Below the pieces are notes generated by a model. That model was given only the letters and a program-made list of their open reading frames with translations. It was not told the DNA's origin and made no database searches. DNA of 54,763 bases from positions 1 through 54,763 of the IMG/VR virus record IMGVR_UViG_3300028394_000094; one strand, 5' to 3'. This document shows positions 2,814 to 33,172 of this stretch, piece by piece (the first letter of the stretch is position 1; the number at the start of each line of letters is the position of its first letter). The stretch is from a virus. A program made the position numbers and the translations under genes.

Positions 2814-3470
2814 ATGAAACAAGTAATTAAAACCCCTGTAACAATCAACCCTGTTATTGCATCAATGATTGCCCCTGTTATTGCCCCTGTTGTTACTGTA
2901 GGAAAATTCGATTTATTCCCTGTTAGTAACGATGTAAACAGCCCCTATGTTTTGGTATCTCAATTCGGTAAAAATGGTATTGAGCATGATGCTATTAAGT
3001 CTAAGATGCAAGATGTTTTATACGCAAATGGTTATCGTGCTTGTAATTTTGACCGAAGCGATAAAAGCGAAATTGCAATTAAATTTCACGATAGTATCAA
3101 ACAGTTGTTTATATCCCAAATGGATACACAAGCACAAGAGTTACTTGCTAAACCATTGGAAGGGTTAAACGATATGCAAAAAGCAATTAGAACTAACTTG
3201 TTAGAAAAGGTAGGCACATTGTTTGGTAACTTGCACAAGGCAATTAAGGCAATGGAAACGCCAAAGGTAGTAACCACTGAAACAACAGTATCAGGAAAAT
3301 TAGTACCTGTTACTGGCAATCAATTAGTATGCCGTACCATTATGGAACAAATTGTAAAGTTACAAGCAATCAAAACACCATGTGACAAAAATGTAGACAT
3401 TATTAAAACATTGCAATCAGTGGTTAAGATGTTTAATGATTGTGGAATTGTGGCATCGGTTAAAAAATAA
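2814..3470 (+). CDS. Stand-alone early protein of unknown function
   Basis: This 218-residue protein is not recognised. AAAGGA about 10 nt upstream supports the ATG. The N-terminus holds a hydrophobic Pro/Val/Ile stretch (INPVIASMIAPVIAPVV), not clearly a membrane segment. A charged helical middle follows (HDSIKQLF, AQELLAKPLEGLNDMQKAIRTNLLEKV) and a C-terminal part with three Cys (CRTIMEQ, TPCDKN, NDCGIV). It has its own promoter and is followed by two terminators, so it is transcribed alone and probably very early. A host-takeover or regulatory role would fit that place, but nothing in the sequence proves it. Confidence 0.75.
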   Translation: MKQVIKTPVTINPVIASMIAPVIAPVVTVGKFDLFPVSNDVNSPYVLVSQFGKNGIEHDAIKSKMQDVLYANGYRACNFDRSDKSEIAIKFHDSIKQLFISQMDTQAQELLAKPLEGLNDMQKAIRTNLLEKVGTLFGNLHKAIKAMETPKVVTTETTVSGKLVPVTGNQLVCRTIMEQIVKLQAIKTPCDKNVDIIKTLQSVVKMFNDCGIVASVKK

Positions 3471-3490
3471 CCTGTAGTATCTTTACTTTA

Positions 3491-3516
3491 AACCCTGAGC
3501 AATCAGGGTTTTTTTT
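3491..3516 (+). terminator. Rho-independent terminator 1 after the stand-alone gene
   Basis: AACCCTGA (3491-3498), loop GCAA, TCAGGGTT (3503-3510), with a T-run 3509-3516. This perfect 8-bp stem plus U-tract lies 21 nt after the stop of the 2814 gene. Confidence 0.95.
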
Positions 3517-3517
3517 C

Positions 3518-3541
3518 GCCCTAATTTTTAGGGCTTTTTTT
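3518..3541 (+). terminator. Rho-independent terminator 2 (tandem)
   Basis: GCCCTAA (3518-3524), loop TTT, TTAGGGC (3528-3534), then seven T. It directly follows terminator 1, so readthrough from the first gene would be very low. Confidence 0.93.
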
Positions 3542-3593
3542 GGTTCAACATTTTATTAATAGTATATTTACTACCAACATCTTACCGAATGAT

Positions 3594-3731
3594 ACCAGTC
3601 ACCTTAGTAGCGTACCACATGGGATTCATTGGCTAGGTGTTATGCTGAGTTCAGCATAACATATTTTTCAAAGGTTTGTCGGCTTTATAGTAACTTTACT
3701 TTAAAAGAAACCAGTCACCTTAGTAGCGTAC
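3594..3731. repeat. 22-bp direct repeat, two copies
   Basis: An identical 22-mer beginning ACCAGTCACC and ending TAGCGTAC occurs at 3594-3615 and 3710-3731. Similarity continues weakly downstream (CACATGGGATT against CACAGGATT). The copies flank the 3639-3660 dyad and sit just before the iteron array. Confidence 0.85.
3639..3669. other. Perfect dyad followed by T-run (hairpin or operator)
   Basis: GTTATGCTGA (3639-3648) and TCAGCATAAC (3651-3660) are perfect inverted arms around GT. As RNA it forms at least a 9-bp stem with loop AGTT, followed by ATATTTTTC. It may be a third terminator or a protein-binding operator. Confidence 0.6.
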
Positions 3732-3745
3732 TGCACAGGATTTAT

Positions 3746-4016
3746 AAGTTCCAAATATTCTTGGAACTTTATGAGCAAAGTTCTTTTTTAAGTCGTTGAT
3801 TTATAAGCAAAGTTCCATAAGTTCCGAAAGTTCCGTGTTTTTTGAGGTATCTCCTACTTTTAAAATTTTAAAATATTTCGCAGGATTTCGACTCTCTAAT
3901 CGCAATGTAGCGAAATCCTCTATAAAGCAGGAACTTTCGGAACTTTCGGAACTTAACTGCAGAATCAATGACTTACAAACATAAAAAAAAGAACTTATAA
4001 AGAACTTTAGGAACTT
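3746..4016. repeat. AAGTTCC/GGAACTT iteron-like array with nested dyads (origin candidate)
   Basis: A perfect inverted pair comes first: AAGTTCCAA 3746-3754 and TTGGAACTT 3761-3769. Then AAGTTCC occurs three times at exact 9-bp steps (3810, 3819, 3828), and its inverse GGAACTT three times at the same steps (3930, 3939, 3948); the 25-bp arms match at 23 positions. Between the arms lie the A/T palindrome 3858-3873 and the inverted pair AGGATTTCG 3882-3890 / CGAAATCCT 3911-3919. Further GAACTT copies are at 3991, 4002 and 4011. The spacing and symmetry resemble iteron origins or cooperative operator arrays. Which of these it is cannot be decided from sequence. Confidence 0.8.
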
Positions 4017-4081: not shown

Positions 4082-4110
4082 TTGACTTTACAAGGTATTT
4101 GTTGTAAAAT
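4082..4110 (+). promoter_or_regulatory. Early promoter P2
   Basis: TTGACT (4082-4087), 17 bp, TAAAAT (4105-4110), followed by AGTAGTAGG. It shares the block GTTGTAAAATAGTAGT with promoter P3. It drives the gene string starting at 4200, with a leader of about 80 nt that carries one AGTAA-NN-TTACT palindrome. Confidence 0.8.
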
Positions 4111-4199
4111 AGTAGTAGGAATTGAGAAACACAAAACGAAGTGCTTAGTTCCCAAAGTTCTTTTATTTCATAGTAAGTTTACTTTCAAGGAGAATCAAA

Positions 4200-4543: not shown

Positions 4544-4782
4544 AACAACATAAACGAACTACCCCATACGAAGGCGATGATATTGCCGAGTTCACCCATA
4601 ACAACAAGTTTCACCGTTCAACGGACGAGGCTTTCCGAACTGCCAATTACGCTAGTAGTTTCGAGGGTGATGCCGAGATGACGGATTGCAAACGCTTTAT
4701 CGGTGAGTTTGTGTTCGTATGTTTACCAGTAATCTTACTATTCGCCTATTTTATGTACCTGTTGTTAGGATGGTTAGCATGA
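4540..4782 (+). CDS. Small protein with C-terminal membrane helix (80 aa)
   Basis: A hydrophilic N-terminal part (HKRTTPYEGDDIAEF) is followed by one strongly hydrophobic segment at the C-terminus, FVFVCLPVILLFAYFMYLLL. This suggests a tail-anchored inner-membrane protein with most of its mass in the cytoplasm. It is joined to its neighbours by ATGA overlaps. An early membrane protein could serve superinfection exclusion or host modification, but that is only inference from place and topology. Confidence 0.7.
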   Translation: MKQHKRTTPYEGDDIAEFTHNNKFHRSTDEAFRTANYASSFEGDAEMTDCKRFIGEFVFVCLPVILLFAYFMYLLLGWLA

Positions 4783-5000
4783 AGAACGAACAAAAACAAA
4801 CCATAAAATCATGGCGATTTACCATTACTTGGTCAGATGGTAAAACCGAGGGTTTAGCCAGTTGTTTACCCGAGTATCTAGAAGAAGAATTGTTTATCTA
4901 CTTTAGAGAACTTGAAGACTTGCGTGAAGAGCATGATGCAGATATGCGTGATGAGCCATATAACTTTGAAGACGACACCGAAAAGGAGATTGAAGAATGA
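4779..5000 (+). CDS. Small acidic protein (73 aa), unknown
   Basis: Begins MKNEQKQTIKSWRFTITW. I chose the ATG at 4779, which overlaps the previous stop as ATGA; an in-frame start further upstream would run through the membrane segment of the previous gene. The C-terminal half is very acidic (REEHDADMRDEP, EDDTEKEIEE). Unknown function. Confidence 0.65.
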   Translation: MKNEQKQTIKSWRFTITWSDGKTEGLASCLPEYLEEELFIYFRELEDLREEHDADMRDEPYNFEDDTEKEIEE

Positions 5001-5621: not shown

Positions 5622-5646
5622 CTTTTGTGACAAGTTGTTGTAAAAT
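5618..5646 (+). promoter_or_regulatory. Early promoter P3 for the MoxR/VWA module
   Basis: TTGACT (5618-5623), 17 bp, TAAAAT (5641-5646), followed by AGTAGTTAG. It is nearly identical to P2 from the -10 box onward. It overlaps the end of the preceding gene and leads into the 5698 gene. Confidence 0.8.
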
Positions 5647-5697
5647 AGTAGTTAGAAGTAGAGAGAAAGTAATTAACTAACCATAAGGAGTATTACC

Positions 5698-6579
5698 ATG
5701 AATCAGTTGAATCTTAGTAACATTACTACCCAAACACCGAGTATATCCTCGAGTGCTATGTTGGTAGAGTTGAACATATCTGTGTGGACAGGTAGGAAGT
5801 TTGACAAGGGTGTATCTGCTGAAGTCGCTTTCAACAAGCAAGCCGATAACAATTCAGGGAACTATAACAAGAAGTTATTCCCTAACAACCCAACCTTTGA
5901 TGCCATTACCAAGTACGCAGGTAACGCACGAACATACCACTACCATGCGACTATGCCTTGGTCAGATTCGGGAGTAAGGTTACTTACGACTGCAATGTAC
6001 TTTGATTATGCCAAGGAGATTAGCCGTATGCAGATGGAGTTTGATGCCTTGGTCGAGGACTTCTTAAAAGATTATTACAACCTTGTGCAGTCTAGCCAAG
6101 TGAAACTAGGCACGATGTTTGATGCTACCGACTACCCCGATGTCGAAGATGTTAGGGCGAAGTATCGGTTCAATGTCAGGTACTCACCTGTACCCGAGGT
6201 AGGTGATTGGCGAGTCGATGTAGGTAACGATGCCTTGAAAGAGTTGGCACAGTCTTATGAGTTGGCATACCAACAGAATCTAGAGACTGCCTATAAAGAT
6301 GTTTGGACAAGAACACATGAAGCGTTGTCTCGGATGTCCGATAAGTTGGCAGGTAATAACAAGCAGATATTCAGAGACACACTAGTAAGTAATGTTACTG
6401 AGATGGTGGACTTGTTGGATAAGTTCAATGTCACAGGTGATGCCGAGATGAGAAAAGCCAAGGACTTAATCAGCGATGCCCTCATGGGTATTACACCTGA
6501 TGCCTTGCGTGAAGATACATACTTACGGCAAGAAACTAAGAGCAAGGTAGATGCGCTCTTAAAAGAGTTTAGTTGGTAA
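5698..6579 (+). CDS. DUF3150-like partner of the MoxR/VWA module (293 aa)
   Basis: The protein has a mixed N-terminal part (LNISVWTGRKFDKGV, HYHATMPWSDSG) and a mostly helical, charged remainder ending in KSKVDALLKEF. Its place directly before a MoxR-type AAA+ ATPase and a VWA protein is the usual place of the DUF3150-type phage protein. I assign it on context and general look, not on a motif. AAGGAG precedes the ATG within a 15-base leader repeated before the next gene. It carries three exact AGTAA-NN-TTACT palindromes. Role inferred: substrate or adaptor of the ATPase. Confidence 0.6.
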   Translation: MNQLNLSNITTQTPSISSSAMLVELNISVWTGRKFDKGVSAEVAFNKQADNNSGNYNKKLFPNNPTFDAITKYAGNARTYHYHATMPWSDSGVRLLTTAMYFDYAKEISRMQMEFDALVEDFLKDYYNLVQSSQVKLGTMFDATDYPDVEDVRAKYRFNVRYSPVPEVGDWRVDVGNDALKELAQSYELAYQQNLETAYKDVWTRTHEALSRMSDKLAGNNKQIFRDTLVSNVTEMVDLLDKFNVTGDAEMRKAKDLISDALMGITPDALREDTYLRQETKSKVDALLKEFSW

Positions 6580-20644: not shown

Positions 20645-21052
20645 ATGGAAAATGAAGGAGTATCAATAGAATCACTTACCCGTGTTTACATCAAGATGCG
20701 GACTAAGAAAGAAGAAATGAACAAGGAACTTGAAGCTAAAATATCTGAACTTGAGGAAAAGATGAGAACTGTAAAAACAGCGATTCTTGAACACATGAAG
20801 GATGTTGGTGCCGAAAGTATTAGAACAGAGTCGGGAACTGTATATCGCACAGTATTAACACGCTATACGACAAACGATTGGACTTCTATGCACAAGTTTA
20901 TCCTTGAACATGAGGTGCCTGATTTATTGGAGAAGCGGTTGCAACAAACCAATTTGAAGGCTTTTTTAGAAGAGAATCCGGACATAATACCCCCCGGACT
21001 TAACGCTAACAACGAGTATTCAGTTACAGTAAAAAGGAGTAAAAATGGTTGA
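20645..21052 (+). CDS. Coiled-coil phage protein, Gp157-like pattern (135 aa)
   Basis: Residues about 18-45 form a strong coiled coil (KKEEMNKELEAKISELEEKM). A part with AILEHMKDVGAESIRTESGTV follows and the end is TVKRSKNG. The layout (helical start, then a small beta part) is like the siphovirus Gp157 group, often encoded next to recombination or SSB genes. The tie is by pattern only. GGAGAGAG precedes the ATG. It overlaps the next gene by 8 nt. Confidence 0.6.
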   Translation: MENEGVSIESLTRVYIKMRTKKEEMNKELEAKISELEEKMRTVKTAILEHMKDVGAESIRTESGTVYRTVLTRYTTNDWTSMHKFILEHEVPDLLEKRLQQTNLKAFLEENPDIIPPGLNANNEYSVTVKRSKNG

Positions 21053-21311
21053 TGATGCTTATGTCCCCATTGAAAAAGTAGCCGAACACTTTGCGGTGTC
21101 AGTTTCTACCGTAAGGACTTGGATACGAAACGAGGACATACCTGCCTTGAAGTTAGGAGGAATCTATCGCTTTAAGTTGTCTGAAGTAGAAGCGAAACTT
21201 CGTAACACAGAGGTAAGTGTTCCCCAAGAAGTAGCAATAGCAGTAGAAAAAGCAGTAAAAGAGCCAGTACAACTGGAATTTGATTTTAGCAATCCTGACA
21301 AGGATATTTAA
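21045..21311 (+). CDS. Excisionase/MerR-type helix-turn-helix protein (88 aa)
   Basis: VPIEKVAEHFAVSVSTVRTW, then IRNEDIPALKLGGIYRFKLSEVE, is the pattern of the HTH_17 excisionase-type DNA-binding domain (helix-turn-helix plus a wing). A short acidic tail follows. No integrase is present, so a transcription or replication regulator is more likely than an excisionase. It is a possible reader of one of the palindromic motifs in the early region. Confidence 0.83.
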   Translation: MVDDAYVPIEKVAEHFAVSVSTVRTWIRNEDIPALKLGGIYRFKLSEVEAKLRNTEVSVPQEVAIAVEKAVKEPVQLEFDFSNPDKDI

Positions 21312-22170: not shown

Positions 22171-22277
22171 TTAATAGTTACGGGGGGAAAACGGGGAACA
22201 CGTTGGCTCGGCAACGCTAAATAGCCTGTACATCGAAGTTAATCAACACGTTAGTACCCCCACCTTCAAAGGTGGTT
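22171..22277 (+). promoter_or_regulatory. Structured leader of the primase-helicase gene
   Basis: A G-run (22182-22187), hairpin CGTTG/CAACG (22201-22205, 22212-22216) and a C-run (22257-22261) are followed by CCACCT TCAA AGGTGG (22260-22265, 22270-22275). The last hairpin holds the AAGG ribosome site of the gene. The C-run can pair either with the upstream G-run or partly in the site-hiding hairpin. This points to translational control. Confidence 0.6.
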
Positions 22278-25106
22278 ATGAACACACAATTATTTTTAGA
22301 AAAAATACTTGGGGACGAAGGATATTACTGCATTCTTGGACTAGCGCAGGATAAAGTAGTTCAAAAGTTTTATACCAAGCTTCAAGATGTTATTAAAGTG
22401 GCGGAGAATTTTAAGGAGAACGGATATGATGCGTACTACGCACTAGCTACATTTGAAGATGCCAAGTCGAGGATGGCAAGGAACGTAAAACAACTTAGGT
22501 CATTATTCCTAGATTTAGATTGTGGTGCGGAGAAACCTTATGCTAACCATGCAGAAGCATTAGTTGCACTGAGGAAGTTCTGTAAAGATATTAAGTTGCC
22601 CAAACCCACGATTGTTAATTCGGGTGGGGGTATACACGCATACTGGGCATTTACAGAACCTATATCTCGGGAAGAGTGGTTACCTGTTGCTAAGAAGTTT
22701 AAGAAGCTTTGTGACGAATGTGATTTACGGATTGATAGGGCTGTACCTGCCGATGCCGCTCGTATTTTAAGGATTCCGGGGACTTTGAACTTTAAGTTAG
22801 AGACTCCAAGAGATGTTAGCATTATTGGTGAACTAGCACAGAGTCTACCGTTTAGTTTCTTTAAAGGTATTATTGGTGAAGTAGTTGAGGCAGAAAAGAC
22901 TTATATACCCCGTGGTGAGATGGACGAAGTTACAAAATCTATTCTTGGTAACTTTACGAATAAATTTAAAACAATAATAGTAAAAACAATAGCAGGTGAA
23001 GGTTGCAAACAATTAGAGTATATTATTAAGAATCAAGCCACAATGAATGAGCCTATGTGGAGAGCAGGATTATCTATTGCCAAATTTTGTGTAGATGCTG
23101 ATACTGCCATGCACAAAATCTCTGCTGAGTACCCTGACTATACACCCGAAGGTACAGAAAAGAAGTTAATGGGTATCAAAGGAGGTCCTTATACTTGTGT
23201 GAAGTTTGAAGAGTATAACCCCGGAGGTTGTACGGGTTGCCCCAACAAGGGTAATGTTAAGTCTCCGATTGTTTTAGGTAGAGAAGTACAGGAAGCATCA
23301 GAGCAAGACAACATTGTTGAAGACACGGTATATGGTATTGACCAAGGGCATACACAGACTTATGTTATCCCTAAATATCCTGAGCCGTATTTTAGACCAA
23401 AGAATGGCGGTGTTTGTAAACGGATAATCAAGCAGGGAGATGAGATAGAGGTAATGATTTATCACAACGACTTGTATGTAACCCGTAGACTAATGGACTC
23501 CGACTTAGGTGAGGCAGCGGTTGTGCGGTTGCACTTACCAAAAGACGGTGTAAGAGAATATACAGTACCACTCTCGGCAATTACTTCTAAGGATGAGTTT
23601 AGAAAGCATATGTCCACCAAGGGTGTTGCCGTAATTAAAATGGACCAAATTATGAGTTATGTAAATACATGGGTTAATGAAATGCAATTTAAAGTTAAAG
23701 CAGATGTAGCACGGAGGCAGTTTGGTTGGACAGATAGCGAAAAATTTGAATCGTTTGTAGTTGGGGATAAAGAAGTTTATGCAGACCGTATAGACCATAA
23801 CCCCCCATCTATGGCTACGGCTAAGATGATTCGGGAAACCTTTATCTCCAAGGGTACGCTAGACGGTTGGAAAGAGACGATGGAGTTTTATAACAAGCCG
23901 AATATGGAGTTGCATCAGTTTGTTATCGGACTTGGTTTCGGCTCAATCTTTTCTGCGTTTACTTCTATTCATGGTGCGATACTGCACATTCATAGTAAGG
24001 AGACAGGGTTAGGTAAGACAACAGCAATGTTTGCAGCCGCTAGTATATGGGGGGACCCCGGGACTTTGGTGTTGAAAGAAAACGATACGGCTAACTCTAA
24101 ACTAAACCGTGTAGAACTACATAAAAATATACCTACGTTTGTAGACGAGGTTACAAACTCTATTCCTGTAGGGTTAAGTAATTTTGCATATAACTTTACT
24201 TCCGGCTCGCAACCTAATAGGATGTCTTCGGGTAGTAACCAAGAGCGTATTAGAGGGGCGAACTGGAAAACGACTTGTGTAACTACAGGTAATACAAGTA
24301 TGTTAGAACGAATTGCGGCATACAAGGCAATGCCGAAAGCAGAGGCGGCTCGAATATTAGAAGTAAAAGCCCACGAAGTTATTGGCTTATCTAAGGCAGA
24401 AGGGGATGAGTTTAGCGAGAAAATTAATAACAACTATGGTCACGCATATATACCGTTTCTACAATATGTAATGAATGACGTACCCGGGATAAGGGCGTTG
24501 TATAAGCAGACTCAACTTATTATAGATAAAAAGGCAGAGTTCAAGAACCCTGATAGGTTTCACTCCGTACTTATTACCAATGCGATTATGGGGTTGATGA
24601 TTGCTAAGAAGGTTGGATTAATAAGTTACGACATAAAGCCTGTACTTGCTTGGGCGCTGGGGAAGGTTAAAGAATCACAGACTACGCAGAACGAACTTGA
24701 TATAGATGCCGAGGGTATTCTGACTTCTTACTGGGCTGAGAACTATACCAATGTACTACGGATTAAAAGTACAGATGATGCACGGAATCCCACTTCCGGT
24801 GTAGACCATTTAGTTGTGCCTGACGGTTCACCAAGGGCTACCTTTGTAATGCGGTATGAATATGATATTAAGATGTTGTATCTATTTATGGCACCTTTAA
24901 AATCGTGGTGCGTTAAGCAACAGATAAACTATTCGGGATTTATTGAAGCACTCAAGAAGGGTAGAACGAAAGCAAAGATAGACAAGAAGCGTATGGGTAA
25001 GGGCACTAATAATAACTTACCATCACATAGCGTTTTGTTTGTAGATTGTATAGACTTTATGGAAGATGATGCAGAAATCCCCAAAATCAATAGCATTGAA
25101 ATTTGA
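22278..25106 (+). CDS. AEP-type primase fused to superfamily 3-like helicase (942 aa)
   Basis: A primase-helicase for phage replication. The N-terminal archaeo-eukaryotic primase domain shows FLDLDCG (D79, D81) and SGGGIHAYW (H120), the hhDhD and sxH marks of this fold. A Cys cluster (CTGCPNKG with an upstream Cys) follows. The C-terminal ATPase has Walker A TGLGKTT (K580) and an acidic FVDEV near residue 625, resembling DUF927/SF3-type helicases. I chose the ATG at 22278, with AAGG 5 nt upstream; a GTG at 22272 is possible. Its end overlaps the next gene by 41 nt. Confidence 0.9.
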   Translation: MNTQLFLEKILGDEGYYCILGLAQDKVVQKFYTKLQDVIKVAENFKENGYDAYYALATFEDAKSRMARNVKQLRSLFLDLDCGAEKPYANHAEALVALRKFCKDIKLPKPTIVNSGGGIHAYWAFTEPISREEWLPVAKKFKKLCDECDLRIDRAVPADAARILRIPGTLNFKLETPRDVSIIGELAQSLPFSFFKGIIGEVVEAEKTYIPRGEMDEVTKSILGNFTNKFKTIIVKTIAGEGCKQLEYIIKNQATMNEPMWRAGLSIAKFCVDADTAMHKISAEYPDYTPEGTEKKLMGIKGGPYTCVKFEEYNPGGCTGCPNKGNVKSPIVLGREVQEASEQDNIVEDTVYGIDQGHTQTYVIPKYPEPYFRPKNGGVCKRIIKQGDEIEVMIYHNDLYVTRRLMDSDLGEAAVVRLHLPKDGVREYTVPLSAITSKDEFRKHMSTKGVAVIKMDQIMSYVNTWVNEMQFKVKADVARRQFGWTDSEKFESFVVGDKEVYADRIDHNPPSMATAKMIRETFISKGTLDGWKETMEFYNKPNMELHQFVIGLGFGSIFSAFTSIHGAILHIHSKETGLGKTTAMFAAASIWGDPGTLVLKENDTANSKLNRVELHKNIPTFVDEVTNSIPVGLSNFAYNFTSGSQPNRMSSGSNQERIRGANWKTTCVTTGNTSMLERIAAYKAMPKAEAARILEVKAHEVIGLSKAEGDEFSEKINNNYGHAYIPFLQYVMNDVPGIRALYKQTQLIIDKKAEFKNPDRFHSVLITNAIMGLMIAKKVGLISYDIKPVLAWALGKVKESQTTQNELDIDAEGILTSYWAENYTNVLRIKSTDDARNPTSGVDHLVVPDGSPRATFVMRYEYDIKMLYLFMAPLKSWCVKQQINYSGFIEALKKGRTKAKIDKKRMGKGTNNNLPSHSVLFVDCIDFMEDDAEIPKINSIEI

Positions 25107-25366: not shown

Positions 25367-25392
25367 CCCCCGCCCTTGCGGGGGATTTTTTT
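25367..25392 (+). terminator. Strong terminator between convergent gene blocks
   Basis: CCCCCGC (25367-25373), loop CCTT, GCGGGGG (25378-25384), then A and seven T, which run into the stop codon of the converging gene. It ends rightward transcripts. In the leftward direction no U-tract follows the stem, so leftward termination would be weak. Confidence 0.95.
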
Positions 25393-28300
25393 AGTTGTAT
25401 GCGGCGATGTTATCTAGCATCTCTTGTTCTAACTTCTTACTGTATTGAACACCATTTACCATCCGTTTACTTGCGTCAAGGAATGCACGACTTGATCTTT
25501 CAAATGTTTCTGCATTAATACCAAGACCCGGATGTTTACGATTAAGTTCCATTAATTTTTCTTTAGCTTCTTCTCTAGCCTCAACATCGCCAACACGGTC
25601 AGAAATGTTATAGCGTTGTAACAGTTTATTTTTCTCATCAAGAATTGCTTTTTCAATACCTTTGTTTTTAGCATTGATTGCTTGTTGTAAAGACAACTCA
25701 GCGGGGGTAAACCCTAATGCTTGTGCACCTATACTAAAGATACTGAAATCTTCAATCATTGGGTCACCACGCATTGTCGTAGCGCCCTCGGTACCGTACC
25801 GGAAACTCTTCATAGCGTTACCTAAGAAAGACGGAAGTATATCTTCAATACCACGTTCTATATTGCCTTCTTGTATCTTGCTTAACCCACGCATAATTTT
25901 AGAACCCGCACCGTAAGCTGGTCCGCCAAAGGTTTGTAAGAACGCATCTTGGAATGTTGCAGATTGAGATGTTGGGTTTGTTCTAAATATTAAATCACTT
26001 AAACCAATACGTCCGGCAACATCTAATCCAGTAATTTCATTAATCAAACCTTTGTATACAAACTCACCAATATATTTACGGGTTGCAGTTTCAAAGTCAT
26101 CTTCGTCATCATCTGCAAACAAGTTGTATACCATAGCAGCCATACCAAACATTGGTACCCCTTGTAGTCCTGAGAACAACGCAGCGGTACCATATATACC
26201 AGCAATTTGTCGCATAGCAGCTTTCTTCACCTCTTTATCTTGGTTTTGCAAAGCATCTCTTGTAATTTTAAATAGTAAATAGTACATGGATACCCCGTAC
26301 CCTTTGTACATAAACAGCACCTTACCTAAAGCATTTTTAGAAATAAGCGGTGCGTTACCTGCGGCTATATTACCGTTTGTTAATTTAGCTACATCTACAG
26401 CGTATCTGGCGGCAGCGTCTTCAGCTGCTTGACCCTTAATACCTTTACCGTGTAATTTAGCTAACTGTAAATTATATGCAGCCATTAAAGATATTTCACG
26501 ATTCATACGGTCAGCGTGATGAAACGCCCAGCCGGAAGTAGTATTTATTGTGTTAAGAATATTTTTACGCCCGTCAACTTCAAGCACATCATAGAATGAG
26601 GAACGGTTTAACTGTCCTTCTCCCGCTGCCAAATCATACAAAGTTTTTAACCTTCTAATTTCGGCAGGTAATTTAGCATTGTCAAAGTCGTAATTGCTCA
26701 TAGACGGCATAGCTTTACCAGTAACTTTTTCTTTACTACCAATCATCTCTGCGGTTTTAGCATACCCACTAGCAAAAAATGCTCTTCTAGCCGCACCTAC
26801 TTCTTTTATTGTATCTGTCCAACTATGGTCTCCGGCTAGATATGGCATTACTACCATTGGCAACTGCGCTAACTGCACAACTGCCGAGGACACGTTAAAC
26901 CCTAATTGATAGTTAAAAGTAAGTGTGTTAACAAGGTTAGCTGTTTTTGTTATGATATTGTTATTGTTCGCACTATTTGCGGCAATATGCTTTTCAAATA
27001 TTTTTATGTATTCATTAACTAGTTTATTATCTTTAGCGTCAGTACCCTTAGTCATCGCTTTAGATAATGTCTTCATGTCCGACATTAACTTGTTAATCTT
27101 TGCACCGTATATCATCCTACCAACTTGTTGAGTTGTACTATACAACCGGTCCCGTAGCGCTTCTACAGCATCCTCTTTGTAACCTAACACGTTTTGACGT
27201 TTTCTAAATGACTGAGCAAAAGATGTTTCCGGCAACGTACTAATGTATAGACGCATTACTTCTTCGGAGTTTTCTTCGTATTTTTCTAACGCTGCTTTAT
27301 GTTTTTCTTTTTGATTAGCCGTAGCATTATCGGGTAGTTTAGGTTTGTTGCTCTCTAATACTTGCAACACTTTATTAACAAAACTTCCTGATGGCGCACG
27401 GGTATATTGATACTCAGCTAGTTTAGAAAACTGCTCAATGTTAGAAGCACCTTCTTTTTTAAGTTCTTCTATGGCTCTAGTGCGAGCACGTTCATATTCA
27501 AACGCTTCGATATAAGTTTCTACCTGCCCACTTTTATCTCTCATGTTATACGACAACCAGTAATTACCTTTACGAGTTAAGGCAAAGTAAGGCTCAATCT
27601 TACCTTGTGCAACTAATTTAGCCATAATATCGGATTTAATTTTTGCTTTAATAGTGTCGTCTACGCTAAAGGTTTCAATTCTTTCATTGATTGCCCTAAC
27701 AATTTCATTGTATGTAGCGCTGTAAGCATTACGCATATCAACATATAACTTCTTACCAGACCCACTTAATCTGTTGTACTCGGCTTTTACCTTGTTGTAA
27801 TTTGCATCCCAAGTTTTATCTTTTTGCGTAGCCTCTGGATAATCTGTTTTTTCTTTAGTTGGGTCGGCTTTGCTTGTTGTACTACCGTATACAACAGAAT
27901 TAAATAATTTAACCATCTCAGGAGTTGCTTGTTTAACCCACGCTTCAGCCCTACGAACTAGCGGTTCAATTTTTTCATTTTGTCCGTTAATATATTGAGA
28001 TTGCTCGTCAATTAATTTACCAATGCCTGTAGCACCTTTTAACCCAACCCGTTCAGCTTCCATACCCAGCACATTAACAGGCAGGGAAGAAAGGATTGCA
28101 GTTAGTGCGTTGCCGAATACACCTTTCTTAAGTACCTCATGTAATGCGTTTGCACGGTTCTGATTCATAAACGGTGCGTTAGCTATCTTATCTATAAACC
28201 CATCAAATATAGATTGAGCATCTTCACCTGTAACTCCCGGAACATTGGGTTTATTACGAAGCGTAGCTTGTTGTTTCTCTACAGTTTCTGTATTTTTTGA

Positions 28301-31300
28301 CGGTATTCCTCTAAAGACTTGCTTTGCTGCAACATCTTCAACCCTTGATTTAACATTCCTAGATACTGCGAGGGGGCGTTCTCTTTTATCCCCAGACTTA
28401 ACCATGTCTGAAGGTACGTCTCCAGTTGCGGTTTGCTGTGAGCCATCTGTAAACTGCTTTCCAATAGATCGTGCGTCATTTTTCTTAGCCTCTTTATTTA
28501 TAAATACAAATATATCTTCATTATCTTGAAAAGATTTTAACAATTTATTTTCAAGGGCGTTTAAATCAAATCCTTTTGTAGCTTTTAAACTAAGGATAAT
28601 TTTTTGCATTTCAGCCGGAAATGCTGCATCGTGGCTTCTTACTTTATGATGTGCAAGTTCGTGAATCATTGTTCCAAACGTACCATATGCCGCTCGTGTT
28701 ACATCTGAAAATTCTGGTAAAGCTGGGTTAACAAATAATCCAATAAATGGTATACGAATACTAACACCACGATATTCTTTATCAAAAGATATACCAATAC
28801 CTTCTTTTTTTAAATCTTTATAATTAAGATGTTTGGCAACAGCATCTCGTAAATCTTTAAATACATCTCCAATTTCGTACATAAATTTGTCAAATCTGTC
28901 GCCAAATTTATACCTTGCTATATCTGTAATACTTGAATAAACAGTTAACCCAAATCCATTTAATTCATCGTCAGCTTTGTCTCTTTTTTCACGTATAGCA
29001 TATTTTTCGTTTCTTAAATTTTCCCTAAGTTTTTCTTGCTCTTTAGATTCCCAATCATCTTTTTCATAAGTAGCATCTACTTGTTTGTCTAAAGCATCCA
29101 TTTCTTGTTGAAATTTATCAATATCAGCTTTTATTTCTGCTTTAGTTCTTTCTATAGGAATTTCAAGATTATCATGTAACATGACTTTATCATTTTTAAT
29201 AGTTGATTGGTCAACTTTTAAAGAATCCGTATCTATAAATACTGATTCTAAATCTTTTGTATTTAATTCCGGAATTTTTCTACCATTAACTATTAGTTGC
29301 CCGTTTTCAACTTTTACCTCATCTCCAAGATTTATTGCAGATGCTGCTGTTTTTTCAGGACCTTTGGGTTCTATTTTTTCTTTAGCGGTTACTTTTATTT
29401 TTGAACCAATCATAGATGGTTCTAAATATTGAACGTATCCAAAATCTAACGCATCGCTAGTAAAATCAATTTGTCTATATAAAACAGAAATATAATTAAA
29501 TATTTTTTCAAAATCTTCTTGCGCTACTTTAGAAAATGATTGCCTACTTAATTCAAAAGGATATCCGGGGTCTTCTGCTTTTACTTTTGGTACAACATCT
29601 ATATAAAATTCTCTGCCAATTGGGTCCGACAGATAATCCATTGGGTTAGTTTTTATTTTTGTACTAAATTGCCATAATCCGTTTGATAAAATATGTGTAT
29701 TATTACCATATTTCTTTTGTTGATTTTTAGTAACGTAAATTCTAGCGGTACCCCAATTAAAATTAGCATTAGCAAAAGTTGTGTATTCGTCTATATCAAA
29801 GTTTTTACCAATATTTAATATTTTATTATTAAATTTAACTTCAATATTATCAAACAACGGGCTATACATTAAAACTTTATGATAGTAAAGGTCTCCATCA
29901 AAATCAATTTTTGTTTCTTCTCCAGTAGAAGAATTTATATATGTTTCAGGAATTGTAATTCTTATGTGGGTACCATGCCCTTCAGGAAACATTTTTAAAT
30001 CTGCGGCGGTTGGTTTTTCTACGTTAATATCTGGAGCAAACGATGGGTCGTCTAAAGCTTCGTATAAAGTTTCCCCCGTAGTGTCAAGTACGCTAACTTT
30101 ATTATTTTTTAACGTAGTAACTTTTAATTCTTTATTAGCAAATAAAAATAACATTTTAGCAATACCCAAACTACCTGATGGTCTAGTAGTTCCTTTTTTT
30201 GTTCCCGCAATTTGTAAAAATTCTTTGCCAAGCACTGCTGCTTCCATACCTGTACCGTTGTCTAGAATAGTAATAGACCTATCAGACTCGTTCATAGTAA
30301 TAGATATTTCCCCGTTTGTTATATCGCCAAGTTCTAAACCTTCTTTAATTGCATCAAAAGAATTTTGAATTAATTCTTTTATAGATACAGTCGCTATATA
30401 ATCTGGGTTGCCATATAATTTTGGACCAATTAATTTAGCTAACCTTCCTACATTTACACCGGGAGTAGATTTTATTATTTGAAATAATTTATTGCTACGT
30501 ATATTATCTAATGCTTGGGTTGCATTTTTTACAGACTGTTCGTAAGATTCTCCCGACTCAAGTGCTTCAAGCATTCTTCCAACGTCCGCATCGGTTATTT
30601 CTCCAGCCTCGGCTAATTTAATAATTTCATTTTTAATCTTATCAAATTCACGTTTCCCGGTAATATCCTTTAATTCTGTTAACTGTTGTTTAAATTTAAA
30701 ATTTTCACGTTGAATTTCTAATTTTTGTTTAGGGTCTTTAATTGTTTCTAAATAGTCATTGTTATTTTTAATTTGTCGTTCTAACCCTTCAATAGTTTCT
30801 GGTGCTTTTACTACTTTTGGCTCTGCCTTTTCTTCCGTCTTTGGCTTTGGCTCGGCTAGTTTAGCCCTTTCTTCTGCTAATTCTTTTCTTGCTTTAGATA
30901 CATCTTTTCCTTTAGCTTCATCTTTATTAAGATTACGTTCAGCTTGTAAAAGGGCTTTCTCCATATCAGTTAATGGTTTTTTAACTGGCGGTTTTAATGC
31001 ACTCGACTGTACCGCTTCTCCTGCTCCAAGTCCTGTAGCAACATTCTCAAAAACACCCACTCCTGCAGGTTTAATTGGCGCAGGTCTTCCGGCAGCGGGT
31101 GCTGGTCTGTTAGGTACAGGAACGCTCTTTCCATTTGGTCTACTGACAGTTGCGGCGGGTTTAGTTCCACGGGGTGCCTCCGTTAAAGGTAAAGATTGTT
31201 GTTTTGCTAATTCAGTAAATGCTTGGTTCCGTAGAAATTCTATCGGTGCTTGATTCATTCTTGTATTCTGTCTAGCTGCAGTTAACACCTGACCAAGTTT

Positions 31301-33172
31301 TATCTGGTCATCTGGGTTAGCCATATCTAAACCAAGTAGTTGTTTGTAATATCCTGACTGTGGTTTGAGACCAGTGTTTTTTAATGTTTCTGCATCAAGC
31401 ACAGTACTAATTTGCGGTTGCTGATATGTTAAATCTTCTTGCAAACTTTGCGTTTGCCCTTGGCGAATACCTTCTGTACGGGAAGGACGACCACGCTCAC
31501 CAAACAAGTCAGACTGCTGTTGAGCTGCAGGAGCACCGTTAGCTGTTGGCGGTCTAAAAGTTTTTTGTTCCGGAAGCAATCCGGCAAGATTAAGTTGTTG
31601 TTGGGCTTGAGATTGCCGTGCAATTTTTTCTACTTGGGCTTGCTTCTCTTGTACGGCTTGTTGATGCGCTAAATTAATTTCACGTAGTTTCTGTGCCGCT
31701 TGTAATTGCTCAGAAATCTGAGTACTAGGCTTGGCTTCCGGCGCAGGAGGCGCAAACTGTAATACACCTTGACGAGAGTTTGCTATACGAGGGTCAGCTA
31801 CTTCACCACTTTCAACAGAATACATTTTATCGTTCTGTTGTTCTGCACGGGCTTGTTCATAAGCTTGTCTAGTTGCTTGTGCAGGGGGCATACCTTTACT
31901 AACAAACTCTTCAAATAACTCCCGTGTACGTTGTGCTAAAGGGTCAACTTCTTTTGGTGCAGCTTGAGGAGGCTTTTGCTCTAAGTTTTTATAAAACCCT
32001 AACAAGTCAGGCTGCTGAGTTTCAAATGCGCTTTTTTCCCCAGCTGGAGGTTGATTAATTTGTGCTGGTGGTTGTACTGGTGGCTGCTGGGCTTTCTGTG
32101 CTGCAATATTAGCTAGTCTATCGGCTTTAACTTGAGACGCTTCAACAGCTGCTCCCGGCGCACCAACAATACCACCGCCTATAGTACCTTTAAACATACT
32201 AGTAATAATACGGTCTATGTTCTCAGGCGAGAAAAATGGGTCTTTACTTCCAGCTAATTGACTGGCAAAAATTTGTAATGAATCTTGCGCACCTTCAGTT
32301 AACCCTTCTCCTAAAGCTGTTGTACCTAATGCTTTACCAAATTCTTTTTTCCAAGTAGTAGGAACTACGCTGGATTTTTTAAGCATCTCTTCAGCTAATT
32401 TGGCTTTGCCTGCAGAACCAAGCTGACTTAAAAGTTTTGAAGGTAGATATGTATCAAGAGCCGCAACTAAAGAACCTATAGTAAGTGCAAGGTCAGGTCT
32501 TAATTCTCCAGTATCTTCATAAATACCTTGAAGCGTATCAGGTATATTTATACCAGCAGAAGCTGCGCCGAGTCCAATTTTACCGCCCAACTCTTTAGCG
32601 GACTTCTCAGCCAATGCACCTGTAACTTGTTTATTTATAACTTCTCTAGCTGCAGATAACTCAATACCTTTTCTAGCAGCTAATTTTCCAGCTAAACCCT
32701 CAACAACTTCTGCCGTACCTCTTCTTGCAAGCGCACCTGCACCAAATGAACCTGTTAACAAACTAGCAACAAATGCCGCTACATCTGGACCAAGTTCACC
32801 TAAAGTCTCGGCTCCAGCACCAAGAAAATTACCAAAACTGTCTACTTGTTTATAAGATTTAAATGCAGTTGGATTAGCTTGTTCAGCTTTCTGCATCCGT
32901 TCTTTATACTCGTCTAATTGTTGTTTGGCATAATCATCAGCACCGATAATAGAACCGCCCAAAGCAGGGAGTAGGTCAAGTGCTGTACCTTTAAGTCCTT
33001 CTAAAGAACGCTGGAACCCACTAGAAACTAACGCACCCAAACCTTGTTCTCTGTAATCAACAGGGGCAACCGCATATCTATCTCGGATTGCCCGAGCACT
33101 AGCCATTACTTCTTCATTAGTGCCGTCAGGAACCTCAACAATTCCTACCCCATCAATTTGAACTCTAGCCAT
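25391..33172 (-). CDS. Giant polyvalent/internal virion protein with GHKL ATPase and zincin motifs (2593 aa)
   Basis: The last and largest late gene. The N-terminal part has small-residue hydrophobic stretches (VAAFVASLLTGSFGAGAL), then a long Gln/Pro/Lys-rich region. Around 930-1010 it has a GHKL (Hsp90/MutL-type) ATPase: KELIQNSFDAIKE (932 on), DNGTGM (971-976), GSLG (1000-1003). A zincin motif MIHELAH follows, with HELAH at 1504-1508. The rest is long and helical, with VLFMYKGYGVSMY near the end. Its size and place resemble phage polyvalent proteins and ejected internal proteins that enter the cell with DNA. Ejection is inferred; the motifs are plain. Confidence 0.85.
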   Translation of the reverse strand: MARVQIDGVGIVEVPDGTNEEVMASARAIRDRYAVAPVDYREQGLGALVSSGFQRSLEGLKGTALDLLPALGGSIIGADDYAKQQLDEYKERMQKAEQANPTAFKSYKQVDSFGNFLGAGAETLGELGPDVAAFVASLLTGSFGAGALARRGTAEVVEGLAGKLAARKGIELSAAREVINKQVTGALAEKSAKELGGKIGLGAASAGINIPDTLQGIYEDTGELRPDLALTIGSLVAALDTYLPSKLLSQLGSAGKAKLAEEMLKKSSVVPTTWKKEFGKALGTTALGEGLTEGAQDSLQIFASQLAGSKDPFFSPENIDRIITSMFKGTIGGGIVGAPGAAVEASQVKADRLANIAAQKAQQPPVQPPAQINQPPAGEKSAFETQQPDLLGFYKNLEQKPPQAAPKEVDPLAQRTRELFEEFVSKGMPPAQATRQAYEQARAEQQNDKMYSVESGEVADPRIANSRQGVLQFAPPAPEAKPSTQISEQLQAAQKLREINLAHQQAVQEKQAQVEKIARQSQAQQQLNLAGLLPEQKTFRPPTANGAPAAQQQSDLFGERGRPSRTEGIRQGQTQSLQEDLTYQQPQISTVLDAETLKNTGLKPQSGYYKQLLGLDMANPDDQIKLGQVLTAARQNTRMNQAPIEFLRNQAFTELAKQQSLPLTEAPRGTKPAATVSRPNGKSVPVPNRPAPAAGRPAPIKPAGVGVFENVATGLGAGEAVQSSALKPPVKKPLTDMEKALLQAERNLNKDEAKGKDVSKARKELAEERAKLAEPKPKTEEKAEPKVVKAPETIEGLERQIKNNNDYLETIKDPKQKLEIQRENFKFKQQLTELKDITGKREFDKIKNEIIKLAEAGEITDADVGRMLEALESGESYEQSVKNATQALDNIRSNKLFQIIKSTPGVNVGRLAKLIGPKLYGNPDYIATVSIKELIQNSFDAIKEGLELGDITNGEISITMNESDRSITILDNGTGMEAAVLGKEFLQIAGTKKGTTRPSGSLGIAKMLFLFANKELKVTTLKNNKVSVLDTTGETLYEALDDPSFAPDINVEKPTAADLKMFPEGHGTHIRITIPETYINSSTGEETKIDFDGDLYYHKVLMYSPLFDNIEVKFNNKILNIGKNFDIDEYTTFANANFNWGTARIYVTKNQQKKYGNNTHILSNGLWQFSTKIKTNPMDYLSDPIGREFYIDVVPKVKAEDPGYPFELSRQSFSKVAQEDFEKIFNYISVLYRQIDFTSDALDFGYVQYLEPSMIGSKIKVTAKEKIEPKGPEKTAASAINLGDEVKVENGQLIVNGRKIPELNTKDLESVFIDTDSLKVDQSTIKNDKVMLHDNLEIPIERTKAEIKADIDKFQQEMDALDKQVDATYEKDDWESKEQEKLRENLRNEKYAIREKRDKADDELNGFGLTVYSSITDIARYKFGDRFDKFMYEIGDVFKDLRDAVAKHLNYKDLKKEGIGISFDKEYRGVSIRIPFIGLFVNPALPEFSDVTRAAYGTFGTMIHELAHHKVRSHDAAFPAEMQKIILSLKATKGFDLNALENKLLKSFQDNEDIFVFINKEAKKNDARSIGKQFTDGSQQTATGDVPSDMVKSGDKRERPLAVSRNVKSRVEDVAAKQVFRGIPSKNTETVEKQQATLRNKPNVPGVTGEDAQSIFDGFIDKIANAPFMNQNRANALHEVLKKGVFGNALTAILSSLPVNVLGMEAERVGLKGATGIGKLIDEQSQYINGQNEKIEPLVRRAEAWVKQATPEMVKLFNSVVYGSTTSKADPTKEKTDYPEATQKDKTWDANYNKVKAEYNRLSGSGKKLYVDMRNAYSATYNEIVRAINERIETFSVDDTIKAKIKSDIMAKLVAQGKIEPYFALTRKGNYWLSYNMRDKSGQVETYIEAFEYERARTRAIEELKKEGASNIEQFSKLAEYQYTRAPSGSFVNKVLQVLESNKPKLPDNATANQKEKHKAALEKYEENSEEVMRLYISTLPETSFAQSFRKRQNVLGYKEDAVEALRDRLYSTTQQVGRMIYGAKINKLMSDMKTLSKAMTKGTDAKDNKLVNEYIKIFEKHIAANSANNNNIITKTANLVNTLTFNYQLGFNVSSAVVQLAQLPMVVMPYLAGDHSWTDTIKEVGAARRAFFASGYAKTAEMIGSKEKVTGKAMPSMSNYDFDNAKLPAEIRRLKTLYDLAAGEGQLNRSSFYDVLEVDGRKNILNTINTTSGWAFHHADRMNREISLMAAYNLQLAKLHGKGIKGQAAEDAAARYAVDVAKLTNGNIAAGNAPLISKNALGKVLFMYKGYGVSMYYLLFKITRDALQNQDKEVKKAAMRQIAGIYGTAALFSGLQGVPMFGMAAMVYNLFADDDEDDFETATRKYIGEFVYKGLINEITGLDVAGRIGLSDLIFRTNPTSQSATFQDAFLQTFGGPAYGAGSKIMRGLSKIQEGNIERGIEDILPSFLGNAMKSFRYGTEGATTMRGDPMIEDFSIFSIGAQALGFTPAELSLQQAINAKNKGIEKAILDEKNKLLQRYNISDRVGDVEAREEAKEKLMELNRKHPGLGINAETFERSSRAFLDASKRMVNGVQYSKKLEQEMLDNIAAYN

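Follow-up and report, generated by a model that had tools for sequence, protein, structure and literature searches.

Two opposed GTTC-core iteron arms upstream of terL in an uncultured tailed phage: a proposed replication origin of the satellite kind

What purpose is served by a dense array of short opposed repeats placed between the structural and the early genes of a tailed phage? The question is raised by positions 3,746 to 4,016 of IMGVR_UViG_3300028394_000094, a 54,763-base virus record in which no end repeats were found and which was analyzed over its whole length (hereafter, the window). The record comes from an uncultured tailed lake phage and encodes terminase, virion structural, and tail-spike proteins. 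Its leftward genes comprise the structural block and terL. Its replication genes run rightward, from approximately 4.2 to 25.3 kb, and encode an AAA ATPase, an HNH nuclease, a PolA-type polymerase, an exonuclease, an SNF2 helicase, an HTH_17 protein, and a 944-aa primase-helicase. The array lies upstream of terL, at a distance of approximately 2 kb (1.4 kb in the case of the gene next to terL); at 3.8–4.0 kb, it is 18 kb away from the primase-helicase gene (22.3–25.1 kb).

In our opinion, this array is very likely the replication origin of the phage, which two facing rings of its own primase-helicase would read through their C-terminal winged helices. A replication origin was the first of the functions offered for this locus by the initial annotation, and it is supported by three lines of evidence: conservation of the array in relatives, homology of the helicase to known initiators, and association of the layout with helicases in other elements.

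Anatomy and conservation of the array

The array is not a product of chance, because 9 of the 19 copies of AAGTTCC/GGAACTT found in the 54,763 bases fall within 281 bp, where 0.05 would be expected at the outside rate; because GTTC and GAAC triples at 9-bp steps occur in the window only as the two arms; and because 20,000 base shuffles of the surrounding 2 kb produced no AAGTTCC triple. The initial annotation had described three AAGTTCC and three inverted GGAACTT at exact 9-bp steps, forming 25-bp inverted repeats, and this description holds (heptamer starts in Table 1); the repeats match at 23 of 25 positions. The A/T palindrome reported between the arms is perfect, as is the 9-bp dyad at 3882–3890/3911–3919. 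The dyad reported as perfect at the left margin is perfect in its 9-bp arms and not in its 6-bp center, which is not palindromic. The flanking GAACTT copies were found at 3990, 4001, and 4010, and additional copies of the motif are located at 3778 and 4155. An outer 13-bp inverted element (TAAGTCGTTGATT/AATCAATGACTTA) had been missed. The core ranks at the 89th percentile of A+T content among the 95-bp windows of the record and is presumably the region that would melt.

Table 1. Features of the array, its flanks, and the candidate binding proteins
Feature	Coordinates	Strand	Remarks
Two terminator-like hairpins	3490..3534	+	close gene 2814-3470 ahead of the array
Third terminator-like hairpin	3637-3662		left of the array
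Outer opposed site pair	3746..3769	.	AAGTTCCAA...TTGGAACTT
Outer inverted element, left copy	3789..3801	+	TAAGTCGTTGATT; conserved in G003, G004, L005
Left iteron arm	3810..3834	+	AAGTTCC at 3810, 3819, 3828; 9-bp step
Core between the arms	3835..3929	.	95 bp, 67% A+T; contains TTTTAAAATTTTAAAA (3858-3873)
Right iteron arm	3930..3954	-	GGAACTT at 3930, 3939, 3948; 9-bp step
Outer inverted element, right copy	3963..3975	-	AATCAATGACTTA; pairs with the left copy, 12/13 matching
Three outer sites	3990..4016	-	AGAACTT at 3990, AGAACTT at 4001, GGAACTT at 4010
Promoter-like TTGACT-17-TAAAAT	4082..4110	+	before the rightward early genes; weak, promoter-like sites in the region being at chance number
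Two sites, AGTTCC / AAGTTC	4147..4160	+	downstream of the possible early promoter
HTH_17 (excisionase-like) protein	21045..21311	+	88 aa; candidate alternative or accessory binder
Primase-helicase	22272..25106	+	944 aa; AEP ~1-202; DUF927/SaPIbov1-Rep-type helicase ~366-800; predicted C-terminal winged helix ~810-935

Two further candidate features were considered and set aside. A hairpin in the core (z -2.1 in the window) was rejected as an essential part because four relatives have only a weak one or none (z -1.4 to 0.3). The GC-skew check proposed in the initial annotation is not decisive: a minimum does lie near the array, 1.3–2.1 kb to its left in four genomes, but it coincides with the switch in gene direction. 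Third-codon-position skew, compared between the genes to the left and to the right of the array, did not separate skew from gene direction, and GC skew was dropped as independent evidence for an origin, given that the minima sit at the switch.

The first line of evidence concerns the relatives of the phage, in which the initial annotation had proposed to search for the array, treating its absence, along with the lack of a skew switch or depth peak, as a refutation. The array is present in close relatives. Eighty terL relatives were fetched, and most of those with enough upstream DNA contain a repeat cluster at approximately the same distance from terL. The family array keeps its position 2–4 kb upstream of terL, while the core sequence and the flanks of the motif drift; the heptamers of relatives are different but related (AAGTTCC, ATTGTTCG, AATGTTC, AAAGTTC, GGTTCAA, and others). 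Upstream DNA was sufficient at 33 terL loci (one being that of the window), and at 22 of them a GTTC/GAAC cluster is so dense that no more than 2 of 200 dinucleotide shuffles equal it. The 11 loci that miss this test include three (L012, L020, and L056) in which words other than GTTC rank highest, and also L009, in which the array is nevertheless plain by eye. Among 39 examined, the exact 3+3 layout with 9-bp steps is seen in the window and in L003, L004, L005, L007, and L045; three more (L008, L009, and L011) have a 3+2 or 2+2 arrangement. In an alignment of the window with four relatives, the arms and the outer elements are conserved and the core is not; neither the core dyad nor the A/T palindrome is conserved in these four. 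A kept position combined with a drifting motif and core would suit sites whose reader protein evolves along with them. Co-evolution is not claimed here, as motif flanks were compared with the winged helix by eye and the strongest divergence of the motif (GTACAA, AAGTACG, and CCAGACA) is seen in relatives from contigs that yielded no helicase.

It should be noted that the GAAC triple is found in 6 of 32 primase-bearing records, most of which are fragments that possibly do not contain the region, so the count carries little weight. Three named phages whose primase or terL is related, Rollin (20000–61282 of 61282), RHph_TM3_14A (20000–60889 of 60889), and DSL-LC04 (1–50000 of 61547), contain no such array in the stretches examined, and no named phage matched the array region at the DNA level.

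Other repeat arrangements were observed as well. G023 (55744–56100) and G025 (23121–23420) have 13–14 loosely spaced GTTC/GAAC sites per 350 bp, most of which point the same way; these array regions contain no 9-bp triples, despite the same primase-helicase type. The terL relative L048 has, approximately 2750–2410 bases upstream of terL, eleven copies of TGGAACA in one orientation, mostly at exact 24-bp steps, which makes a different iteron layout at the same place.

The primase-helicase and the distribution of the layout

The second line of evidence is the nature of the proposed initiator. The primase-helicase matches DUF927 (PF06048) with an E-value of 1.8e-22 and carries a Walker A motif, GLGKTT, at residues 579–584. 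A profile search of the PDB based on six homologues retrieved SaPIbov1 Rep (8tch, E 2.5e-14) and SCCmec Cch (5dgk, E 6.5e-12). The structure predicted from 40 sequences (mean pLDDT 76, pTM 0.49) aligns with Cch over 366–937 (Z 28.7, 480 residues, rmsd 12.8) and with SaPIbov1 Rep over 369–930 (Z 26.2, 440 residues, rmsd 13.5); the rmsd values imply that the placement of domains differs from that in both proteins. The predicted N-terminus resembles the PrimPol of cyanophage S-2L (Z 19.2, rmsd 2.5). The C-terminal 145 residues, predicted alone, form a helix-helix-strand-strand arrangement, which is read as a winged helix. The best match of this predicted domain among 600 re-aligned chains is Cch 439–553 (Z 8.0, rmsd 2.7), closely followed by SaPIbov1 Rep 452–558 (Z 7.9, rmsd 2.9); Z-scores near 8 are modest, and a relaxosome winged-helix protein ties at 7.6. 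A Foldseek search with the C-terminal domain alone gave nothing significant (best E 0.45), and HTH_56, the HTH of Cch, had no sequence match in the window's protein or its family (13 records searched). The primase-helicase was found in all five records of 58–66 kb among the 25 searched (52–65% identity) and was not seen in the 20 shorter ones.

The third line of evidence comes from a scan in which viral and bacterial collections were searched for the layout itself; the query contained no protein. The pattern, GTTC-N5-GTTC-N(82-112)-GAAC-N5-GAAC-N5-GAAC, presupposes GTTC, and the frequency of other cores is outside its reach. One scan returned at least 119 stretches, many of them chance or repeat matches, and the genome-wide scan returned mostly such matches among those listed. 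Most of the listed matches are repeats inside genes; 68 are not inside an ORF of at least 100 aa, and 61 non-redundant ones remain after removal of the window-family loci (L154, L197, L204, L208, and L221) and of duplicates (L173 and L217). Among the matches listed, a helicase gene (VapE, DUF5906/D5_N, DUF927, or DUF3987) adjoins the array in 17 of the 61, and in 16 of these 17 the array is located directly downstream of the gene, at 2–205 bp (binomial p 3e-4), the placement known from SaPI origins; L286, with the array upstream, is the sole exception. No such helicase lies beside the array in the other 44 listed matches, many of which are probably unrelated repeats or short contigs.

Pfam assignments point in the same direction. 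The 69 ORFs located within 500 bp of the arrays, among the matches listed, include 10 with DUF5906, 5 with VapE, 5 with DUF927, 4 with D5_N, and 4 with the Cch HTH. None of these families has two or more members among 69 far ORFs, a seeded sample from 175 for which the best 25 families were tallied, so that a family with a single member could be hidden. The difference for DUF5906, 10/69 near versus at most 1/69 far (p 0.009), is moderate.

The association extends to whole records. Among the matches listed, nine viral records with a non-coding array reach 30 kb or more, and all nine encode such a helicase: in eight, it is detected by DUF5906, DUF927, or VapE, the families also run on the controls, and in L219 only by DUF3987. 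The controls were 24 viral records with the pattern in coding repeats, hand-picked before the result was known; the three families occur in 1 of the 20 controls of at least 30 kb and in 1 of 24 overall. The comparison of 8/9 with 1/20 (Fisher p 2e-5) involves records that are not all independent, as three of the nine (L115, L204, and L208) carry the DUF927 type of the window and are not independent of it. Non-coding viral loci among the matches listed number 29, or 26 after removal of L173, L217, and L221, and in 18 of these 26 a helicase is present in the record or beside the array. In L114, L121, L146, and L223, the array is not beside a helicase gene and DUF5906 is encoded elsewhere in the phage, as in the layout of the window; L114, classed as coding by the ORF filter and outside the 68, was added by eye to the record-wide helicase check.

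The placement of the array in unrelated elements also helps to weigh other explanations. It is unlikely that the array is a transcription operator, over which a repressor or activator, e.g., the HTH_17 protein, would spread to control the rightward early promoter. Such a role would agree with the location of the array immediately before the block of early genes, with the sites that flank a promoter-like sequence on both sides, and with the retention of the excisionase-like HTH_17 protein in five relatives (at 44–51%); tight 9–10-bp repeats also suit binders of the Xis/Cox type. In unrelated elements, however, the same layout is found downstream of helicase genes and not upstream of a gene; an operator does not need two opposed three-site arms approximately 100 bp apart; and promoter-like sites occur here at chance number.

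A packaging site of the pac or cos kind, read by the small terminase, is considerably less probable still. The layout directly adjoins helicase genes in unrelated elements, and L121, L146, and L223 encode DUF5906 elsewhere; these observations weigh against the proximity to terminase genes that would speak for packaging, i.e., the 2–4 kb that separate the array from terL in the window's family and the 1.1–1.2 kb between the arrays of L121, L146, and L195 and a Terminase_3 gene. A centromere-like partition site, which would keep an extrachromosomal prophage stable, is the least credible: short inverted repeat clusters can be parS-like, but no ParA/ParB domain was detected in the 20 window proteins scanned against Pfam, and the association of the array is with helicases.

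Two bacterial contigs contain a related arrangement that the ORF filter classed as coding: in L297 (~4609–4849) and L328 (~5625–5870), GGAACACNT arrays with a 9-bp step are located next to DUF927-like ORFs.

Comparison with known origins and proposed mechanism

Classic iterons of the RepA and lambda O type are arranged head-to-tail with a period of approximately 18–22 bp. The array, with its 9-bp step and opposed arms, is not an origin of this type; the initial annotation had rightly regarded the step as unusual for iterons of 21–22 bp, and the array is of the P4/SaPI kind rather than of the plasmid/lambda kind. Its layout resembles that of the origins of phage satellites such as P4 and the staphylococcal pathogenicity islands (SaPIs): short sites form two sets of opposite orientation, which could serve as the assembly platform of a self-loading primase-helicase. 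In dairy streptococcal phages (Sfi21), a related origin is located next to the primase.

The type 1 origin repeats annotated in the record of P4 are TGTTCACC-like, occur in both orientations, and contain GTTC in 13 of 16 cases. The crr site directly follows the alpha gene, and each of its halves begins with two forward copies at a 9-bp step; ori is located elsewhere. P4 and the window have in common short GTTC-core repeats in both orientations, a 9-bp step (in crr), a phage-coded primase-helicase, and an origin (in the window, the proposed one) away from the gene of this enzyme. The CACC flank of the P4 repeats is not shared; moreover, P4 is a satellite with two separate sites (ori and crr), and its alpha protein is a helicase of the SF3/D5 type, unlike the DUF927 type of the window. 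Judging by the annotated repeats, the motif core and step of the window fall within the range of P4's origin.

SaPI/PICI origins are described as two opposed iteron sets around an A+T-rich region, served by a DUF927-class initiator helicase with a C-terminal DNA-binding domain (PMC6092414, PMC7581432, PMC9894130). Both features are matched in the window, the second one as a predicted fold only. The C-terminal domain of SaPI Rep is described as binding the origin iterons (PMC6092414, PMC7581432, PMC9894130), and the repeats of opposite orientation as loading two head-to-head hexamers (PMC9894130). There are three differences. The origin of SaPIs and PICIs is located directly 3′ of the rep gene, whereas the array of the window is 18 kb from the helicase gene; they are satellites, whereas the window belongs to a tailed phage that itself encodes a terminase and virion proteins; and the primase of the window is an AEP domain fused to the helicase. 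The array would be a variant working like a PICI origin, and it is not filed as a PICI origin because it is not 3′ of the rep gene and because the phage has virion genes of its own. A statement of 2018 had the layout as common to PICIs and present in "no other known bacterial replicon". Among the open-licence papers listed, none was seen to report such a layout for a complete tailed phage, which is not proof of absence.

SCCmec Cch (5dgk) is the best structural match of the window's helicase. The Cch2 origin is described as containing three short iterons (PMC7581432); these are AAGTG, and the element is integrative and without virion genes. In SV40, opposed short sites load two head-to-head hexamers of large T antigen (PMC9894130); the host is unrelated and the origin-binding domain is N-terminal, so the likeness is one of working principle only.

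We infer binding, ring assembly, melting, and priming at the array. The C-terminal winged helix of the primase-helicase would recognize the GTTC-core heptamers, and the three head-to-tail sites of each arm would nucleate one helicase ring on each side. As the arms are opposed, the core would lie between two rings that face each other, an arrangement also proposed for SV40 and for SaPI origins, and the two motors would open it. The fused archaeo-eukaryotic primase (AEP) would then lay primers, which the PolA-type polymerase of the phage would extend. An accessory protein, with the HTH_17 protein as a candidate, may bind the outer 13-bp element, and initiation could be coupled to early transcription through the sites that flank the possible early promoter to the left and right.

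On a broader scale, we lean, with some reservation, toward the view that two opposed three-site GTTC arms with 9-bp steps, approximately 80–110 bp apart, serve as a general signature in cis for primase-helicases of the self-loading kind (DUF927, VapE, DUF5906/D5, and DUF3987) across tailed phages, satellites, and integrated elements. If so, a layout supposed to be confined to PICIs would be common among phages, could be recognized from the DNA sequence alone, and would sometimes be uncoupled from the helicase gene. The array would provide a testable origin for a large uncultured phage family that yielded no close named isolate in this analysis and would tie a DNA pattern to a class of initiators. 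Should the signature hold, the origins of many phages and satellites could be found by sequence alone, and a possible phage ancestry of PICI replication modules could be tested by comparing origins and helicases together.

Neighboring genes and repeats

Rfam and tRNA searches gave no match. Terminator-like sites near the array number 5 in 2.5 kb versus 1.3 expected. The proteins encoded at 1751–2371 and 2814–3470 are without matches among named phages. The second of these genes, which adjoins the array, has promoter-like and terminator-like signals of its own and evolves fast: it is 32–33% identical over 88–89 aa to its counterparts in G004 and G005, and none was found in G003, G023, and G025. 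The leftward ORF at 25391–33172 (2593 aa) has only partial matches in five relatives (35–55% over approximately 950–1200 aa). To the left of the array, there is a 42-bp direct repeat (83%), at 3588–3629 and 3704–3745, with the core CCAGTSACYTT; CCAGTGACTT is present at the same place in two copies in G003 and G005 and in one copy in G004.
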